A stretch of DNA of 64,000 bases, from contig JAIEMJ010000033.1 of assembly GCA_019752335.1 (NCBI GenBank), positions 62,001-126,000 of the forward strand. Reading direction: 5' to 3'. The DNA is from Bryobacteraceae bacterium. GTDB taxonomy: Bacteria > Acidobacteriota > Terriglobia > Bryobacterales > Bryobacteraceae. Within the stretch, counting starts at the first letter, position 1. Every line of letters begins with the position of its first letter. The notes below the pieces were generated by a model. That model saw only the letters and a list, made by a program, of their open reading frames with translations. It made no database searches and was not told the DNA's origin. Shown in pieces: positions 3,248 through 59,989 of the stretch. Both the position numbers and the translations under genes were made by a program.

Positions 3248-5731
3248 CTAAAAGTTATCGGTTTTTTCTGGCCCAGCAATAGAGGGCGCCGGCACGACTC
3301 TGGCGATTGCATTTTCCAGAGCCGGCAGACCCTGAGTAGCCGCGCCACGCGTGCATTTGGCCTGGTAAAGCCGCTGATCGGCGACAGCCAGCAGGTCTTC
3401 GGCGTCCTGCCCGTCCTGCGGGAACGAGGCGTGGCCGGTGCAACAATTCAGCAGACCCGCGACGTTTTCGGCTTCGGCGGCCGTGGCGATGGCGTGTTCG
3501 ATCTCAGCGATTTTGCCTGCCACCAACCCCGGTTCGAGGCCAGGCATCACTACGACAAACTCGTCTCCGCCCAGGCGCCCGACGCCGTCGTAGCCGCGCA
3601 CCATCTCCTTCAGGTGGGTCGCCACGCGGCGCAGCAGGCGGTCACCGTGGTTGTGGCCGTACTGGTCATTCAGCGCCTTAAAGCCGTTCATATCGCAGAC
3701 GAAAAGCGTCAAAGCGGACTCGGCGCGTTTGGCGCGGCTCAATTCGGCGTCGAGGTAGAAGAATAAGGCGCGCGCATTCAACGCGCCCGTCAGCGGATCC
3801 AGGCTGGAACCGGCCTGCGCTTCGCGGAATTTGAGCGCGTTGGCCAGCGCCAGCGAGAGTTTGCCCTGAATGCCTTGCAGAATGCGCAAATGGTCGCGAT
3901 GGAAGGCGTCGCGGTCGGCGTGGTAGAGCGTCAACACGGCCGGCAGATGGTCGCCCTTGGTGAGGGGGATCGCCAAGGCTGAACGCAGCGTGCTGAACTT
4001 GGTCGGATCATTCAGGTAGCCCGGTTCCACCGACGGATTGCCGTTGATCACGGGCCGGTGATTTTCGAGCACCCAACCCGACAGGCCCTGCCCCAGGGGA
4101 ATCTCCAGTGACGAGAACAGCGAGGCGTTCTCGCCGCTGACGAAGGCTGGGTAGAGCGTGTCGTCGCGGCGCAGATAAATAGCAATGCAGTCGTGCGGAA
4201 TCACGGCCTTGAGGCGCATGCCGAGCACGGAGAGGGTTTCCTCCAGGCTCAGCGACGAGCCCAGCTCGTGCGTCAATTCGTAGACCGCCGACACTTCGTG
4301 GCGCGCCCGGGCGATGCTCGCGACGAAGGAGGGCTGGTCGGGGACGTGCACTGCCAGCTTAGGGTCACTCTGTTCGAAGCCCGCGGCTGGCGCCTCGCCG
4401 CGCTCAATCTTCATATCAAAGTTGAGGCGCACGGACTTGGCCGCAGCGGCCTTCGCCTTTACTTCGAGCTCCGAGGCGCGGCGTACCAGAATCTCCACCA
4501 CGCGGGCGTCAAAGGCCTTGCCCGCCTCTTCCTGGACGATCTTGAGCGACTGCTCCAGCGACATCGCGCGCCGGTACTGCCGGTCCGACGCGAGGGCATC
4601 GAGGCAGTCCACCGTGGAGAGAATGCGCGCGCCAATCGGAATCTGTTCCCCGCGCAGCCCGGAAGGATAGCCGCTGCCATCCCACTTCTCGTGGTGTGAG
4701 CGCACGATCGGCGCGACGGGGTAAGGGAATTGCACGCGCTCCAGGATTTCGGCGCCCACCACGGGATGGATCTTCATCTTTTCGAACTCGTCCGCCGTCA
4801 GCTTGCCGGGCTTCGAAATGATGTAGTCCGGCACGGCCAGCTTGCCGATGTCATGCAGGATCGCCGCCGCTTGCAGGGCCTTCAATTGTCCGGCGTCCAG
4901 CCCCAGTTCGCGTCCAATTTCGAGCGCGTACACCTGCACGCGGCTCAGGTGCTCACTGGTGCAATCGTCCTTGGCTTCAATGGCCAAGGCCAGCGCCTCA
5001 ATCGTGCGCAGATGCAGCGCGGACATCTCTTCGGCGTGGAGCTTCTCATTCTCAATCCGGTCCAGGTAGATGCGGAACGAATGGTAGATGGCATAGATCA
5101 CCGGCAGCACCAGCACGGCCACGGTCCAACCGTGTTGATGGCTCAAGTAAGCCGACAGGCCAGCGACGCTCGCGCCCAGAATGTAGTTGGGGAAGGCCCA
5201 GGTGTAGTGTGCACGCCAAACGGACACCGCACTTTTGCCTTCGCTCAAGCCCACGACAATGGAGACGGAGAATGTGTTCAGCACGTAGTAGGCGATCGCC
5301 GCGCAGGCCAGCTTCGCCGCCGGGTGGATCATTCCGATCTCCGCGACGCCGCGGAAGGCCCACCAGGAGCCAGCCGACGACACCATCAGCGACGCCACGT
5401 TAAAGCAGATCTGAATCGGGCGCGCCTTCACCTGCGTCTTCCACAGGCTGCCCACCAACGCGCCGGCCATCCCCAACGCCAACGTCTCGCCCAGGCTCAT
5501 CTCCAGCACGCCGATCAGCACGAAGATGTAGCTCACCGAGAGGCTACCGACAATGCCGGGCAGGCGAATCTTCAGCGTGGAACCCACCAGGCAGAAGGCG
5601 AGCAGCAGAAGAAAGTGCATCGGGACGCGGCATTCCCAACCGGCCGGGCCAGTGCCAAAAGCGCTGCCCACGCCGGTGGCCAAGGCCAACAGCGTGATCA
5701 GCGCAACGTAGATCTGCGCCTTCAACGGCAC
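3248..5731 (-). CDS. Membrane HD-GYP/GAF/GGDEF cyclic-di-GMP protein
   Basis: 827 residues. Residues 1-220 contain about six to seven hydrophobic segments forming a membrane sensor. Next come an HD-GYP phosphodiesterase domain (about 235-425; HDIGK at 292-296, HHEKWDGSGYP at 346-356), a GAF domain (about 490-635) and a C-terminal GGDEF diguanylate cyclase (about 640-800). The cyclase GGDEF motif is intact at 721-725, and an RGYD sequence at 712-715 sits five residues before it, where the product-inhibition I-site (RxxD) is found. Both catalytic halves therefore look competent to break and make c-di-GMP. The order HD-GYP first and GGDEF last is the reverse of many bifunctional proteins. It is read alone, 60 bp downstream of the peptide transporter operon on the same strand. 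Confidence 0.93.
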   Translation of the reverse strand: MPLKAQIYVALITLLALATGVGSAFGTGPAGWECRVPMHFLLLLAFCLVGSTLKIRLPGIVGSLSVSYIFVLIGVLEMSLGETLALGMAGALVGSLWKTQVKARPIQICFNVASLMVSSAGSWWAFRGVAEIGMIHPAAKLACAAIAYYVLNTFSVSIVVGLSEGKSAVSVWRAHYTWAFPNYILGASVAGLSAYLSHQHGWTVAVLVLPVIYAIYHSFRIYLDRIENEKLHAEEMSALHLRTIEALALAIEAKDDCTSEHLSRVQVYALEIGRELGLDAGQLKALQAAAILHDIGKLAVPDYIISKPGKLTADEFEKMKIHPVVGAEILERVQFPYPVAPIVRSHHEKWDGSGYPSGLRGEQIPIGARILSTVDCLDALASDRQYRRAMSLEQSLKIVQEEAGKAFDARVVEILVRRASELEVKAKAAAAKSVRLNFDMKIERGEAPAAGFEQSDPKLAVHVPDQPSFVASIARARHEVSAVYELTHELGSSLSLEETLSVLGMRLKAVIPHDCIAIYLRRDDTLYPAFVSGENASLFSSLEIPLGQGLSGWVLENHRPVINGNPSVEPGYLNDPTKFSTLRSALAIPLTKGDHLPAVLTLYHADRDAFHRDHLRILQGIQGKLSLALANALKFREAQAGSSLDPLTGALNARALFFYLDAELSRAKRAESALTLFVCDMNGFKALNDQYGHNHGDRLLRRVATHLKEMVRGYDGVGRLGGDEFVVVMPGLEPGLVAGKIAEIEHAIATAAEAENVAGLLNCCTGHASFPQDGQDAEDLLAVADQRLYQAKCTRGAATQGLPALENAIARVVPAPSIAGPEKTDNF

Positions 5732-8206: not shown

Positions 8207-9004
8207 TCAGGAAGATCCTTCTTTCGGAGGGAGGAGAAATTCAAAGGCACAAACGGTGATGGCGAGCAGAATCGCCGGCGCCGCCAGCCCCAGCCAGTTG
8301 GGCGACGACGGCAGATGGGTGAGTTCTTTGAGCAGGCTGCCCAGCGATGGCAAGGGCTCCGCGACGCCGAGCCCCAGCAGGCTCAAGTTCGCTTCATCCA
8401 GGATGAAAGCGGGCACCGCCACGATGAACTGCGTTCGCAACACGGGCCATAGATTCGGCAGCAGATGGACGAAAAGCAGTCGCGGGCGGGAGCAGCCCGT
8501 GGCCAGCGCGCGCAGGATGTAGTCCGAGTTGAGCTGCGTCCGGCAAGCGCCGCGAATCACCCGCGCGGATCCCGCCCAGCCCAGCAAACCGAGCAGCAGA
8601 AACGTAATCATCACACTGGTAACCGGCGACACGTTCAACGGCAGCACCGCGCGCGCCGTAATCAGCACCAGGAAGATCGGCACGGAGATCATCAGGTCAA
8701 TCAAAGTGGAAACGCCGCGATCCCACCAGCCGCCAAACCAGCCGGCCGACAGGCCCAGGACGGCGGCGAGCACCAGGGCGAGCACGCTGGCGGCTGGAGC
8801 GAGCAGCAGACTCACCCGCGCGCCCGCGAGCAGGCGGGCCGCGCGATCACGCCCCAATTCGTCGGTGCCCAGCAGATGCTGGCCGCCCGGCAGAGCGTCC
8901 GTCTGGTCGCGGAACTGCTGGTCATACCGGGCGGGCAACAGGAATTGCCCCGCGACGCCGGCCAGCAACAAAGCCAGCAACAAAGCGATGGCGAGCCGCT
9001 TCAT
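8207..9004 (-). CDS. Peptide ABC transporter permease, DppC-like
   Basis: 265 residues with about six hydrophobic segments, including an N-terminal one (MKRLAIALLLALLLAGVAG). The short GTDELGRD motif that marks the DppC/OppC class is present near residue 50. The cytoplasmic ATPase-coupling (EAA-like) loop appears around ALATGCSRPRLLFVHLLPN. It forms the membrane channel with the adjacent DppB-like protein. Its start overlaps the stop of that gene by 4 nt, and its stop lies 1 nt before the binding-protein start, so the operon is tightly coupled. Confidence 0.9.
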   Translation of the reverse strand: MKRLAIALLLALLLAGVAGQFLLPARYDQQFRDQTDALPGGQHLLGTDELGRDRAARLLAGARVSLLLAPAASVLALVLAAVLGLSAGWFGGWWDRGVSTLIDLMISVPIFLVLITARAVLPLNVSPVTSVMITFLLLGLLGWAGSARVIRGACRTQLNSDYILRALATGCSRPRLLFVHLLPNLWPVLRTQFIVAVPAFILDEANLSLLGLGVAEPLPSLGSLLKELTHLPSSPNWLGLAAPAILLAITVCAFEFLLPPKEGSS

Positions 9005-9864
9005 GCTCGTCCTCGCCCGCGCGTCAGGTAAAGCGACGCCAGATCCGTCACGGCGTTGGCCGAGACGGTGAGCGCGCCGACGAAGAGCGTCATCCCGACG
9101 AGCAAAGGCAGGTCGCGCGCTAAAGCGGCTTGTAGGGCCAGTTGGCCCACGCCCGGCAGGTCACAAATCGTCTCCAGCAGGATCGCGCCCCCGAAGGCGG
9201 CATTCACCGAAAGGCCAAGAATGGCCAGCAAGGCCGGGCTCGCCGGCCAGACGACATAGCGGCTGAGGAAACTGGCGGCGGAGAGCCCGCGGGCGCGGGC
9301 GGCCAGCGCGTAGCCGGTGGCGGCGTTTTGTTTGAAGAGTCCACGCGAGTAGGAGAAGAGCTTCGGAAAGAGGGCAATCGCGAGCCCCAACGCCACGGGC
9401 CGCTGGCCCATCAGAATCAGCAGCGCGACCAGTCCGGCGGGGACGGAGAGCATCACCGCGGTGAGAAGATTGAAGCCCAGTTCAACTTTGGGAAAGGCGA
9501 TGTTCGCGAGCGCCAGCAACAGCGCGCAGGCCCAGGCTCCGGCGAGGCCCCAGGCGATCAGCTTTAGGGTGACTGGCAGGCGTTCGGCGATCAGGCCGGT
9601 GACCGGCACTTCGTAGGAGCGCGACCGGCCCAGATCTCCCTGCAGGGCGTCACGCAGGTAGCGGCCGTAGAACGAGACGATGTCCTGCTCGCCGGCCCGC
9701 GCTTCGCGCATCTGGCGCAGGGTTTCCGCGCTGGTACGGCCGTCGAGTTCGCTCACCTCGACGTCGAAGCCGGGGGCGAGGCGCAGCAGCGTCGCGGCAG
9801 CCAGGCCGGTGAGCGCCAAGGTCGCCAGGCTCGAGAGGATCCGTCGTAAGATCGCATTTCGCAT
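9001..9864 (-). CDS. Peptide ABC transporter permease, DppB-like
   Basis: 287 residues. There is an N-terminal transmembrane helix, a periplasmic stretch ending in a YLRDALQGDLGRS block typical of DppB/OppB proteins, and about five further helices. The ATPase-coupling loop is seen as ARARGLSAASFLSRY. It is the first gene of the operon DppB-DppC-binding protein-ATPase. The region just upstream (9865-10068) holds no other gene on this strand, so the operon promoter is expected there, though no strong consensus could be identified. Confidence 0.88.
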   Translation of the reverse strand: MRNAILRRILSSLATLALTGLAAATLLRLAPGFDVEVSELDGRTSAETLRQMREARAGEQDIVSFYGRYLRDALQGDLGRSRSYEVPVTGLIAERLPVTLKLIAWGLAGAWACALLLALANIAFPKVELGFNLLTAVMLSVPAGLVALLILMGQRPVALGLAIALFPKLFSYSRGLFKQNAATGYALAARARGLSAASFLSRYVVWPASPALLAILGLSVNAAFGGAILLETICDLPGVGQLALQAALARDLPLLVGMTLFVGALTVSANAVTDLASLYLTRGRGRA

Positions 9865-48396: not shown

Positions 48397-48575
48397 GGAT
48401 TTTCAAAAGACCTGGAACCTAAGCACCCAAACGTGACCATCCCGAAGGACGGTAGAGAGAAACGAACCCTCTGAGTATAGCGCAAATCCTCTCCGGTGTG
48501 CGCGTCGGCCAACTAAAGCGCCTGTTTTCATCGCTTTCGCCATTTCCGGCTGATTCTGGTAAGGTGGAAGCAGGA

Positions 48576-50834
48576 ATGCGGCGATTCGCTTGGTTGCTAG
48601 TAATTGCGATTTTGGGCATCGTTTTCGCCGTCGGCAACTCTTACCTGCGGCAGAAGCGTCTCACCGCCTCGAACGCCCCGCCCAAGCCCGCTGCCCTCTC
48701 CCGCGGACTCTCCGCTAAGGCCTCCAAATGGGAGTGGGCCAACAACCAGGGCGACAAGCCCAAGGCCCTCATCCGCGCCACCAGCTTTCGCGAAATCAAG
48801 GACCCGCCCAGCACCGAGCTCGAAGGCCTCGAACTCCTCCTCTACGACAAGTCCGGCGTGAAGTATGACCTCGTCGAGAGCGCCCAAGCCCGCTTCACCA
48901 AAGGCGACCGCGTGCTCTTCTCCGAAAGCGACGTCCGCATCACCATGGGCATCCCCGAAGGCGGCCCCAAGCCGAATCGCGTGCTCGAAATCAAGAGCTC
49001 CGGCGTCCGCTTCGAGCTCGACTCCAACCGCGCCTCCACCGAAAAGCCCGTCTGGTTCAAGTTCGGCCTGGGCGAAGGCAAAGCCATCGGCGCGGACTAT
49101 GACCCGAACCTGCATGAGCTCATCCTCCGTAGCGCCGTTGAACTCACCTGGCATGGCGCCAAGACCATGCACGTCGAATCCGGCGAGGCCCTCTATAAGG
49201 AGCTCGAAAGCAAGGTCTACCTGAAGCCCTGGGCCAAGCTCACGCGCGACAACCTCGTGCTCAACGCGCAGGACTCCGTCGTCGAGCTCGAAAAGGGCAT
49301 TGTCCGCCGCGTCGACGCCAACAAGGCCGTCGGCAGCGACCGGCAGAAGGGCCGCACTCTCGAATACGGCGCCGACACCCTCCACATCGAGTTCAACGCC
49401 AAGGGGCAAGCCGAAAAAGTAGAGGGCATCGGCGCCGCGCGCCTCTCCACCACCAACGAGCGCGAGCGCACGCAGATGAATGCCGCCCGCGTGGACCTCG
49501 AATTCCTCGCCACCGACAAGGATTCTGCCTTGCAGCGCGCCTTCGCGCAAGGCAAGGCCCGCGTGGAGGCCAAGCCCTTGCCGCGCGACAAGGTGCCGCC
49601 CGCCGAGACGAAGGTGCTCTCGAGCGAATCTATCGAGCTCAAAATGCGCCCCGGTGGCGAAGAGATTGACCGGATGGAGACGCACGATCCTGGCGTGATT
49701 GAACTCCTGCCGAATCAACCCACCCAGCGCCAACGCCGCCTGGAGGGCGAGCGCATTCAGATGGCTTATGGCAAGAACAATGTGCTCGAGAAGCTCACCA
49801 GCGTGAAGTCCTCCACGCGGACCGAGCCCGCTGCCTTCCCGGTCCCCAAGACGCCCGGCGTGCCTGTCCTCACCTGGAGCCAGCATCTCGAAGCCAACTT
49901 CACCCCCACCGGCGAACTGGCGCGGATGGAACAGTGGACCAACTTCCGGTATCAGGAAGGCGCCCGCCAAGCCACCTCGGACCGGGCCCGGCTCGAACAG
50001 GCCAAAAGCGAAATCCACCTCACCGGGAAAGCCCGCGTCTGGGATCCGGGCGGCTCCACCGACGCCGACACCATCCTGCTGGACCAAAAGACCGGCGACT
50101 TCTCCGCCGCGGGCCAAGTCCGCAGCGTGCGCGAGGGCGAGCGCAAGCAGACCGCCGGCGGCCTCATGAGCAGCAGTGAGCCCGTCCGCGCGACGGCGAA
50201 CCAGATGTTTTCCACGGCCAAGAATACGCAGGTTCGCTACGAAGGCCGCGCGGTGATGTGGCAAGGCGCCAACCGCCTCAGCGCCGATCACATCGACATT
50301 GACCGGCCCGCCCAAATCCTGAAGGCCAAGGGCCAAGTCGTGAGCCAGATACTCGATACCCAGGCGCCCAAAAGCGCCGGCCAAGTCTTCACCATCGTCC
50401 GCGCGCCGGACTTACTCTATTCCGACAAAGACCAGTTCGCCCACTACACCGGTGGTGGCGTATTTCTCACCCGGCCCGGCTTGCAGGTAAAGGGCCAGGA
50501 AATCCGCGCCTATATGTCCTCGAACGAGAATAGCCAATCGAATTGGGAAGGCCCCGACGGCGGCCTGGAAAAAGCCTTCGCCGACGGTAAGGTGGAGATT
50601 CTCGAGACCAAGGATACGAAGTCCCGCCAAGGCTGGGGGGACCACGGCGAATACTACGTCGGCGAGTCGCGCCTGGTGCTCGAAGGCACGCGCCCCAAGA
50701 TGATCGACTTGCTGGCCGGTGTTCCGCAGCGCACCACGGAAGGCAAAAGCCTGGTCTGGTTCGCCAACAACGACCGCCTCATCGTCGACGGCGAAGAGAG
50801 CAAACGCGCGATTTCGAACCTGAAGAAAAAGTAA
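48576..50834 (+). CDS. LPS export protein: LptC-like N-terminus with OstA/LptA-like repeats
   Basis: 752 residues from ATG 48576. A single N-terminal membrane anchor (MRRFAWLLVIAILGIVFAV) is followed by an LptC-like beta-jellyroll (about 60-200) and then repeated LptA/OstA-like beta segments to the end, for example AVELTWHGAKTMHVESGEA, GAARLSTTNERERTQMNAAR and AVMWQGANRLSADHIDID. Such proteins bridge the periplasm and carry LPS to the outer membrane; a protein of this length could combine LptC and LptA roles. The last 566 bp of the gene, including the stop, recur at 57635-58200. Confidence 0.85.
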   Translation: MRRFAWLLVIAILGIVFAVGNSYLRQKRLTASNAPPKPAALSRGLSAKASKWEWANNQGDKPKALIRATSFREIKDPPSTELEGLELLLYDKSGVKYDLVESAQARFTKGDRVLFSESDVRITMGIPEGGPKPNRVLEIKSSGVRFELDSNRASTEKPVWFKFGLGEGKAIGADYDPNLHELILRSAVELTWHGAKTMHVESGEALYKELESKVYLKPWAKLTRDNLVLNAQDSVVELEKGIVRRVDANKAVGSDRQKGRTLEYGADTLHIEFNAKGQAEKVEGIGAARLSTTNERERTQMNAARVDLEFLATDKDSALQRAFAQGKARVEAKPLPRDKVPPAETKVLSSESIELKMRPGGEEIDRMETHDPGVIELLPNQPTQRQRRLEGERIQMAYGKNNVLEKLTSVKSSTRTEPAAFPVPKTPGVPVLTWSQHLEANFTPTGELARMEQWTNFRYQEGARQATSDRARLEQAKSEIHLTGKARVWDPGGSTDADTILLDQKTGDFSAAGQVRSVREGERKQTAGGLMSSSEPVRATANQMFSTAKNTQVRYEGRAVMWQGANRLSADHIDIDRPAQILKAKGQVVSQILDTQAPKSAGQVFTIVRAPDLLYSDKDQFAHYTGGGVFLTRPGLQVKGQEIRAYMSSNENSQSNWEGPDGGLEKAFADGKVEILETKDTKSRQGWGDHGEYYVGESRLVLEGTRPKMIDLLAGVPQRTTEGKSLVWFANNDRLIVDGEESKRAISNLKKK

Positions 50835-50836
50835 GC
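50271..50836 (+). repeat. 566-bp direct repeat, left copy (3' end of LPS export gene)
   Basis: Bases from AACCGCCTCAGCG to TAAGC are repeated at 57635-58200. I compared the two copies block by block and found no difference, and the encoded 188 residues are the same. Identity ends sharply at both sides. This copy is in frame within the intact gene. Confidence 0.93.
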
Positions 50837-57634: not shown

Positions 57635-58200
57635 AACCGCCTCAGCGCCGATCACATCGACATTGACCGGCCCGCCCAAATCCTGAAGGCCAAGGGCCAA
57701 GTCGTGAGCCAGATACTCGATACCCAGGCGCCCAAAAGCGCCGGCCAAGTCTTCACCATCGTCCGCGCGCCGGACTTACTCTATTCCGACAAAGACCAGT
57801 TCGCCCACTACACCGGTGGTGGCGTATTTCTCACCCGGCCCGGCTTGCAGGTAAAGGGCCAGGAAATCCGCGCCTATATGTCCTCGAACGAGAATAGCCA
57901 ATCGAATTGGGAAGGCCCCGACGGCGGCCTGGAAAAAGCCTTCGCCGACGGTAAGGTGGAGATTCTCGAGACCAAGGATACGAAGTCCCGCCAAGGCTGG
58001 GGGGACCACGGCGAATACTACGTCGGCGAGTCGCGCCTGGTGCTCGAAGGCACGCGCCCCAAGATGATCGACTTGCTGGCCGGTGTTCCGCAGCGCACCA
58101 CGGAAGGCAAAAGCCTGGTCTGGTTCGCCAACAACGACCGCCTCATCGTCGACGGCGAAGAGAGCAAACGCGCGATTTCGAACCTGAAGAAAAAGTAAGC
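57635..58200 (+). pseudogene. 566-bp direct repeat, right copy (truncated LPS export gene)
   Basis: Second copy of the last 566 bp of the LPS export gene, reading as identical to 50271-50836. It carries 188 codons and the stop but no start, no membrane anchor and no LptC domain, so it is a non-functional fragment. Being identical it is either very recent or an assembly effect. Confidence 0.92.
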
Positions 58201-58368
58201 GGTTCCTCGCGCACTGAATGAGTTCTTTCTTGGTCGCAACCCCCCTCTCGCATCGAGAGAGTCACCCGGCGTAAAGAATAGCTGATTCGTTCAATACCCG
58301 GCAGGGCCTTCGATGAGAAACTCAACTTCGTTGGCCGCAAGTCAACCAGATCGAAAGGAAAACAAACC

Positions 58369-58521
58369 ATGTCCAAATCAACTCAATGTACCTGCAAATC
58401 CTGCCCGGGCGCAGTTTGCCCATGCGGATGCCAAAGCCCCAAAACCGAACCTACGCAGTCCGGCTGCGCGTGCGGCGATGTCTGCAAGTGCGGCCCCGCC
58501 TGCACCTGCAAACGCCCCTGA
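58369..58521 (+). CDS. Metallothionein-like cysteine-rich peptide
   Basis: 50 residues with 12 cysteines, easily missed because of its size. The N-terminal cluster is C-x-C-x2-C-x4-C-x-C-x-C (residues 7-21), followed by a Pro/Thr/Gln linker (22-31) and the C-terminal cluster C-x-C-x3-C-x-C-x3-C-x-C (33-47). There are no histidines or aromatic residues. The start is supported by AAAGGA 9 nt upstream. The design, two cysteine clusters joined by a linker, is that of metallothioneins, which bind Zn, Cu or Cd in the cytoplasm; it lacks the histidines of the SmtA/BmtA type. It is followed by a small membrane protein gene after 59 bp. Confidence 0.8.
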   Translation: MSKSTQCTCKSCPGAVCPCGCQSPKTEPTQSGCACGDVCKCGPACTCKRP

Positions 58522-58580: not shown

Positions 58581-59006
58581 ATGGGGTACGGAATCGGAAG
58601 CCTACTCTCGGTAGTGGTGGCTGTGTTTGCGAGGGCCGCGGGATTGGATCGCGATCGCGCTTTCTACCCGACGGTCGTGATCGTAGTGGCCCACTATTAC
58701 GTCCTGTTTGCTGTGATGGGCGGAACCACGCACGCTCTGCTGGTCGAATTGGGCTTAATGAGCGCGTTCGTGGTCGTTGCGGTGGCTGGATTTCAGCGTA
58801 ACCTCTGGTGGGCCGCGGCCGCGCTGGTTGGCCATGGGGTGATGGATATCTTCCACGCCGGCCTGGTGACCAATGCCGGCGTGCCAGCATATTGGCCCGC
58901 TTTCTGCATGACGTATGACGTGGGCGCCGGGGGGATTCTAGCGTGGCTGCTGATGCGCGCCAAGATACCGGCCCTGCCCCGTAGTGGCACCAGGGAGCCA
59001 AGTTGA
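58581..59006 (+). CDS. Small four-helix membrane protein
   Basis: 141 residues from ATG 58581, preceded by AAGGAAG. About four to five membrane segments. GHGVMDIFHAG in the third segment and the AYWPAFCMTYDVGAG stretch are probably conserved polar residues; the pattern recalls the DUF6010 group, but I am not certain. Its stop overlaps the TTG start of the following oxidoreductase (TTGA), so the two are coupled. Function unknown. Confidence 0.68.
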   Translation: MGYGIGSLLSVVVAVFARAAGLDRDRAFYPTVVIVVAHYYVLFAVMGGTTHALLVELGLMSAFVVVAVAGFQRNLWWAAAALVGHGVMDIFHAGLVTNAGVPAYWPAFCMTYDVGAGGILAWLLMRAKIPALPRSGTREPS

Positions 59007-59989
59007 AAGCCATTCTGCACGCCCGCTACGGATCCCCGCACCTCCTCCGCTTCGAAGAGGTGGCGAGGCCAGTACCAAGGGACAAAGAGGTACTGATCAA
59101 AGTACACGCGACGACCGTGTCAACCGGGGACTGCAACATGCGCAATTTCACGTTCGTTACCCCATCCATGCGGCCGATGGCCAAACTTATGTTTGGCATC
59201 GGGAAACCCTGGAAAGAACGCATTCTCGGGACAGAACTGGCGGGAGAGATCGTGGGAGTGGGCAAAGGGGTTACGCGGTTCAAAGCCGGGGACCGGGTTT
59301 TTGGCTCGACCGGTATGGAGGGTGGCGGCCACGCCCAATTCGCCTGCCTCCCTGAAAATGGGGCGTTGGCGATCAAACCCGATTCTCTGAACTGGGAGGA
59401 GGCCGCGGCCATTCCTTTCGGCGCGAATACCGCGTTGCACTACCTCCGGGGGCTGGGAAAGATCCAGGCTGGTCACCACCTTCTGATCATCGGAGCTTCC
59501 GGGAGCATCGGCTCCGCCGGAGTACAACTGGCCAAGCATTTTGGGGCGACGGTAACCGCCGTCTGCAGCGGCGCGAATGTGGAACTGGTGAAGTCGATGG
59601 GCGCCGGCAAGGTGATCGACTATACCAAGGAAGATTTCACCAGGCATGCAGAGACCTACGACCTGATATTTGACGTTGTCGGCGCCACCACCTTTCACCG
59701 CTGCCAGCACCTGCTTGAACCCCGAGGTATTTTTCTCCCGTGCATCATGGGTTTGCCTGACGTGGCACAGAGCCTCTGGACCTCTATCGCGGGCGGAAAG
59801 AAAATACGGGGCGGTGTCGCAATCAACAACCTGGAGCGGATGGCCTTCATTGCGGAGTTGGCGGACGCGGGAAAGCTCAAGCCGGTGATCGACCGGAGGT
59901 ATTCTTTGCAGCAGATCCCGCAAGCTTTTGAATACGTTGAACGAGGGCACAAGAAGGGAAATGTCGTAATCACGGTGGAGCACCCGTAA
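59003..59989 (+). CDS. Medium-chain dehydrogenase/reductase, quinone oxidoreductase-like
   Basis: 328 residues from TTG 59003, which overlaps the preceding stop. MKAILHARYGSPHLLRFEEV start, GTELAGEIVGVGKGVTRFKAGDRV (in parts) and the NADPH fold IIGASGSIGSAGVQLAKHFGA are those of zinc-independent members; the catalytic and structural zinc cysteines of alcohol dehydrogenases are absent. It reduces quinones, enones or similar compounds with NADPH. Last of the metallothionein-membrane protein-MDR group. Confidence 0.9.
   Translation: MKAILHARYGSPHLLRFEEVARPVPRDKEVLIKVHATTVSTGDCNMRNFTFVTPSMRPMAKLMFGIGKPWKERILGTELAGEIVGVGKGVTRFKAGDRVFGSTGMEGGGHAQFACLPENGALAIKPDSLNWEEAAAIPFGANTALHYLRGLGKIQAGHHLLIIGASGSIGSAGVQLAKHFGATVTAVCSGANVELVKSMGAGKVIDYTKEDFTRHAETYDLIFDVVGATTFHRCQHLLEPRGIFLPCIMGLPDVAQSLWTSIAGGKKIRGGVAINNLERMAFIAELADAGKLKPVIDRRYSLQQIPQAFEYVERGHKKGNVVITVEHP

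Follow-up and report, generated by a model that had tools for sequence, protein, structure and literature searches.

A probable AraC-activated metallothionein module, uncoupled from its own regulator in a Bryobacteraceae genome

The stretch of DNA analysed in this study, hereafter the window, is 64,000 nucleotides long and carries a gene of only 50 codons whose product contains twelve cysteines. Comparison with about forty related loci leads us to favour, with reasonable confidence, the view that this gene is part of an AraC-activated metallothionein module which has become uncoupled from its own regulator in the source genome. The features of the window that bear on this reading are the following, with the kind of evidence or a distinguishing property given for each.

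48498-50834, LptA/OstA-like gene, whose end (50271-50836, forward strand) is the source copy of a duplicated fragment
57635-58200, forward strand, exact 566-bp duplicate of 50271-50836, occupying the place of the AraC gene of relatives
58280-58294, forward strand, proximal AraC-type half-site AGCTGATTCGTTCAA, retained (motif comparison with relatives)
58317-58322, forward strand, -10-like box GAAACT, 22 nt after the half-site
58354-58359, forward strand, ribosome-binding site AAAGGA (sequence), 9 nt from its end to the ATG
58369-58521, forward strand, twelve-cysteine metallothionein-like gene (open reading frame, family alignment, dN/dS, cysteine density control)
58581-59006, forward strand, membrane protein of 141 amino acids, recurring beside the metallothionein or divergent from AraC in relatives, no Pfam family
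59003-59989, forward strand, MDR-superfamily oxidoreductase with a TTG start (ADH_N, ADH_zinc_N, ADH_zinc_N_2)

The twelve-cysteine peptide and its family

The open reading frame starts with ATG and encodes 50 amino acids followed by a stop codon, the product being MSKSTQCTCKSCPGAVCPCGCQSPKTEPTQSGCACGDVCKCGPACTCKRP. A preliminary description of this DNA had given the same coordinates and had reported twelve cysteines in two groups of six with no histidine or aromatic residue, preceded by a good ribosome-binding site, and re-reading of the sequence bears this out: the cysteines occupy positions 7, 9, 12, 17, 19, 21 and 33, 35, 39, 41, 45, 47, histidine, phenylalanine, tyrosine and tryptophan are absent, and AAAGGA lies at the expected place. 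The highest cysteine density of the window is 12 cysteines in a stop-free stretch of 42 residues, as against maxima of 6-8 in all 40 order-2 Markov windows. Together with the dN/dS values given below, this rules out an open reading frame arising by chance.

Homologues were accepted at E≤0.001, and the source genome is included in the order and phylum counts where applicable. Within the order they were found in 15 of 257 genomes, source genome included, and across the phylum in 9 of 396 sampled genomes, one of the nine (G973) being a weak fragment with an internal stop. In one family of Pseudomonadota homologues were found in 15 of 294 genomes, but in a wider order sample in only 1 of 399, namely the centre genome itself; the family is therefore patchy across Acidobacteriota and Pseudomonadota. 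A search of named records confirmed 9 loci out of 67 pattern matches, and named relatives are found in records titled Bryobacter, Sulfopaludibacter, Ramlibacter and Pseudoduganella. One Cupriavidus plasmid carries two copies of the metallothionein-like gene. On a Gemmatirosa plasmid (L063), a peptide encoded 3' of an AraC gene is likely a relative of the family in Gemmatimonadota. A record titled Bordetella parapertussis (L016) carries a Bryobacteraceae-type locus, the same as contig C5 of genome G025, which is of the family to which the window belongs, and is probably mislabelled.

A viral origin is without support, since tblastn confirmed none of the 113 pattern matches found in viral contigs. 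A tblastn search of a Cupriavidus metallothionein against plasmids gave no match and missed even its own record, so that low-complexity filtering probably makes such tblastn negatives meaningless; in the same way, some of the 58 pattern matches in named records (of 67) that were left unconfirmed may in fact be true members. After the tblastn search with the peptide found nothing, AraC was used as a proxy for the metallothionein in the plasmid search.

Before the counts, L042 and L020 (both the same locus as L011) and L070/G973 (the weak fragment) were dropped, and shorter stretches of loci also taken in longer form were regarded as duplicates. The peptide alignment comprises 30 of about 40 peptides and the AraC alignment 9 proteins. 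The neighbourhood count covers 36 loci and excludes L071, L075, L082 and L063, the last of which is included in the set of 40 loci used for the peptides.

The peptides of the 40 loci are 46-64 amino acids long with 11-14 cysteines, and aromatic residues are absent from 36 of them. L081 (= L137) is an outlier with six aromatics and may lie outside the family. In the alignment of 30 members ten columns are invariant, comprising nine cysteines and one glycine; the peptides of L013 and L016, outside the strict core, have lost one cysteine and contain 11. The closest peptides to that of the window are those of L011 (80% identity) and L013 (74%). Over seven pairs, three of them including the window gene, dN/dS is 0.07-0.30, and it is about 0.2 between the window gene and its nearest relatives; the gene is thus conserved and under purifying selection. 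The preliminary description had made its reading depend on conservation of the reading frame and cysteine spacing in relatives, and both are conserved in the aligned members. Small size, cysteine richness, repeated Cys-x-Cys and few or no aromatics are all hallmarks of metallothioneins. The cysteine pattern kept throughout the alignment supports the predicted metallothionein-like character of the window peptide, which probably traps metal ions.

The AraC-type partner and its operator

An AraC-type gene directly adjoins the metallothionein gene in 19 of 20 Acidobacteriota loci, the sole exception being the window, and in 14 of 16 loci of Pseudomonadota. Its position in L017 and L123 is downstream of the metallothionein on the opposite strand. 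The partner is missing beside the metallothionein in L134, L137 and L082 (the last outside the 36-locus count), and these three also lack the operator described below, while L071 and L075, likewise outside that count, have both. A close AraC (E below 1e-130) is present in each of the 15 metallothionein-bearing genomes among the 257 of the order. Such a gene is found in 16 genomes, and in the sixteenth (G162) it stands at a contig edge and is followed by a distal half-site; G231 and G238 have weaker AraC matches only and no metallothionein. Fisher's exact p for this co-occurrence is 2e-23, a value to be read with the reservation that related genomes are not independent. The partner gene and its operator escaped the preliminary description because AraC is absent from the window.

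The AraC genes of G025 (L016, C5) and G013 (L014, C283) contain an in-frame stop beside intact metallothioneins; the stop may be due to gene decay, to an error of sequencing or to a different arrangement. Shortened AraC genes are found in L061 and L138. On the Sinorhizobium plasmid pSF25509b (L062) a related AraC gene is followed at 3783-3812 by the half-site on both strands before a membrane protein, and no metallothionein was seen there; regulators of this type may control other targets too.

Allowing no more than 2 mismatches over its 15 positions, a half-site, TAGCCGNTTCGTTCAA, is found in 37 of the 40 loci in the 200 bp preceding the start; by the same search it is missing in L079 (= L134), L081 (= L137) and L082. 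A single-site operator in Acidobacteriota was considered and gave way to a tandem one: in 19 of 19 non-window loci of this phylum the half-site is repeated directly with a period of exactly 22 bp, with 0-4 mismatches in all. In the 16 Pseudomonadota loci the half-site is single. Downstream of it, at a distance of 21-22 nt, a -10-like NANACT box occurs in 31 of 34 loci with the site, compared with 8 of 720 random positions. This layout is the one expected of an AraC activator that contacts the -35 region, the class II arrangement. Half-sites also face the divergent partner genes of L036, L038, L039, L126 and L127, which suggests that these genes share the AraC regulator.

When the 257 genomes were searched for the tandem pattern, it was found at the metallothionein promoter of every genome that has the gene except the source genome (14 of 15). 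The other matches were two upstream of AraC facing away and three stray ones, and the reversed-pattern control gave two. In the window the proximal half-site is retained and the distal one, expected 22 bp upstream of it, is missing. Across the source genome, ATAGCYGNTTYRTTCAA has a zero-mismatch match only at the window half-site; when up to 2 mismatches are allowed, it has 6 matches and the reversed control 9. A consensus scan for promoters and terminators returned one promoter-like site (0.5 in shuffles) and three terminator-like sites (2.5 in shuffles), none of them at the metallothionein promoter.

The AraC proteins have a C-terminal double helix-turn-helix, matched by HTH_18 with E-values of 1.8e-15 (L011) and 5.5e-17 (L033). 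An AlphaFold model of the L011 protein, made from a 9-row alignment, has a pLDDT of 83 and matches full-length AraC proteins in the PDB with Z up to 11.9. With Foldseek, its N-terminal part matches cupins, including the metal-containing TM1459, which was absent among the 50 PDB fold matches listed for the whole model. The cupin carries a conserved set of ligand-like residues, H50, H52, Q56 and H88 (His-x-His-x3-Gln...His), and in an AraC alignment of 39 rows the first two histidines and the glutamine are kept in 35 and the last histidine in 37, the departures being truncated or partial rows. The spacing resembles that of the histidine ligands of TM1459, two of which are named in structure titles; HxH motifs are common in AraC cupins. 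This set could bind the inducing metal.

Neighbouring genes and the rearrangement in the source genome

The preliminary description had placed the metallothionein-like gene in a metal or oxidative stress cassette, together with a membrane protein and an MDR oxidoreductase that overlap each other. The two genes are indeed found downstream and overlap by 4 bases, and the membrane protein is a recurrent companion, with homologues in 15 of the 20 loci from Acidobacteriota, counting the window, and in 1 of the 16 from Pseudomonadota. The oxidoreductase proved a weaker associate: among a separate set of 20 loci its homologue lies 3' of the module only in L011/L042, which is one locus taken twice, and in L037 it is 3 kb upstream on the other strand. 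A second membrane protein accompanies 7 of 20 Acidobacteriota loci and none of the 16 from Pseudomonadota. All such counts are minima, some locus stretches being short. Identity of the membrane protein as MerC-like was rejected, because one Pseudomonadota member matched with E 0.016, below the cut-off, and the window protein had no match. Its six aligned members gave only two weak one-member matches, to other families, and its AlphaFold model (pLDDT 67.6) is too low in confidence for fold comparison.

In 11 of the 36 loci (4 of 20 in Acidobacteriota and 7 of 16 in Pseudomonadota) the neighbours include a YtkA-like lipoprotein and a di-haem peroxidase of the CCP/MauG type (CCP_MauG, E 7e-37). 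In locus L134 the metallothionein is followed in order by the YtkA-like lipoprotein, the di-haem peroxidase and the membrane protein, from +252 to +2546 relative to the metallothionein start, with no AraC or operator. On the Polaromonas plasmid pPNAP03 (L064), a gene annotated as cytochrome c peroxidase and a related AraC gene are convergent, which recalls the association of the metallothionein module with a peroxidase. The heavy-metal links seen are only two: one copy on the Cupriavidus plasmid is followed by a CzcI-like gene (below cut-off) and genes for an OEP and a CusA/CzcA-type RND protein, and in L040 an RND homologue is situated 3.5-6 kb upstream of the metallothionein.

The peroxidase raises the question of whether the peptide serves chiefly to buffer oxidants through its thiols, with AraC sensing an oxidant or electrophile, the di-haem enzyme cooperating and metal binding incidental. 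Its occurrence with the YtkA-like protein would suit such a role, as would the MDR oxidoreductase downstream in the window. However, the conserved Cys-x-Cys spacing resembles a metal-thiolate cluster, an RND operon lies 3' of the metallothionein in Cupriavidus, and neither the window module nor the stretches of 25 of the 36 loci, some of which are short, showed the peroxidase pair; we consider this explanation unlikely. Far more improbable is that the peptide is a ribosomally made precursor modified by a MauG/MbnH-like di-haem enzyme, as in copper-chelator systems. The substrate would be suitably small and cysteine-rich, and the neighbouring enzyme also matches the MauG and MbnH models, although below their cut-offs; but aromatics are lacking in most of the peptides, no division into leader and core is seen in them, and the enzyme accompanies only a minority of the loci. 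Metal trapping by the peptide, under control of the AraC-type protein, remains our preferred reading.

At the position of the relatives' AraC gene, the window contains, at 57635-58200, an exact copy of 50271-50836; the two copies of this direct repeat of 566 bp are 7.4 kb apart and correspond to the 3' end of the LptA/OstA-like gene. The recombination junction that had been proposed beside the gene is therefore present in the sequence; it could be a recent duplication or an assembly error. The sole close AraC of the source genome is on contig C3 (L054, C3:36000-54000, with the gene at 8300-9130 of that stretch), where no metallothionein or operator adjoins it and the next gene, which is on the other strand, starts some 30 bp further downstream. 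In the AraC tree the C3 protein belongs to a clade with those of L018, L034 and L036 (98/99 support), and the L011 and L013 proteins are in another clade. Because the window peptide is nearest to those of L011 and L013, the window metallothionein and the C3 AraC descend from different lineages of the module.

The window copy might accordingly be a decaying, silent remnant of a real family, its regulator lost. The disappearance of AraC and the distal half-site is consistent with this, as is the other lineage of the orphan regulator. Yet the proximal half-site, -10 box, ribosome-binding site and all 12 cysteines are intact, the dN/dS of about 0.2 against the nearest relatives indicates constraint, though mostly reflecting the past, and a close AraC is still kept in the source genome, so that such decay seems rather unlikely. 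A module that is uncoupled from its own regulator and retains a sound metallothionein gene is the reading adopted below.

Proposed function and comparison with known metallothioneins

The two six-cysteine clusters would bind thiophilic metal ions, each perhaps taking up two divalent or about four Cu(I) ions, giving a capacity of about four or eight ions per peptide. In relatives, the conserved architecture suggests that the adjacent AraC-type activator binds the half-sites by the -35 region and switches the metallothionein gene on, and its cupin His-x-His-x3-Gln...His set could bind the inducing metal. The membrane protein would belong to the same regulon, as would the periplasmic YtkA-like protein and the di-haem peroxidase in some lineages. 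In the assembly of the source genome a duplicated gene fragment stands in place of AraC and the distal half-site. With one half-site and the -10 box left, the window gene may have basal expression, or the orphan C3 AraC may act on it in trans.

A broader proposal, offered tentatively and with appreciable doubt, is that of a positively controlled metallothionein system in at least two phyla, in which a metal-sensing AraC cupin drives a module spanning compartments (a thiolate store and a membrane protein, joined in some lineages by a YtkA-like protein and a MauG-like peroxidase), and in which regulator and target of different lineages work in trans in the source genome. An AraC-activated metallothionein family in at least two phyla would, if true, change the picture of negatively regulated prokaryotic metallothioneins, as given in PMC8790569, where negative regulation of their expression is proposed. 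It would also provide a likely function for some forty loci that match no curated family model, together with a sensor/operator pair. The AraC linkage, the shared architecture of half-site and -10 box and the existence of a family beyond Pfam and NCBIfam appear to be new. Few families of bacterial metallothioneins are known. No AraC-linked metallothionein was among the matches listed in AraC-directed searches of freely accessible literature.

None of the 30 members matched a Pfam or NCBIfam model at E≤0.1; the family is outside the coverage of both, and membership of the SmtA/BmtA group found no support, since no metallothionein model of either collection was matched. The preliminary description had judged the peptide closer to eukaryotic metallothioneins than to the SmtA/BmtA type. 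This holds as a resemblance: the window peptide lacks the histidine and hydrophobic residues of bacterial metallothioneins, and the family profile matched only two chains in the PDB, snail Cd-metallothionein and wheat Ec, both eukaryotic. As for kinship, these matches are non-significant (E 6.1 and 8.4) and no Pfam model was matched. The family shares Cys-x-Cys-Gly repeats with the snail and wheat proteins and differs from them in being bacterial, AraC-linked and without a match to the Pfam metallothionein models.

Like cyanobacterial SmtA and Pseudomonas PflQ2, members of the BmtA/SmtA group, the family consists of small cysteine-rich peptides that probably store metal. Bacterial metallothioneins have a GATA-type zinc-finger fold with histidine and hydrophobic residues, according to PMC10612145, whereas the window peptide has none of histidine, phenylalanine, tryptophan and tyrosine. 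As to control, PMC7387436 describes the SmtB repressor for cyanobacterial SmtA and no metal-responsive regulator for the Pseudomonas metallothionein operon; an AraC-type neighbour is found in 33 of the 36 loci here. In its HTH_18 domain, full-length AraC fold and half-sites repeated directly at a distance of about two helical turns ahead of a -10 box, the system resembles AraC/XylS regulators with tandem half-sites, from which it is distinguished by the linkage of the regulator to a metallothionein.
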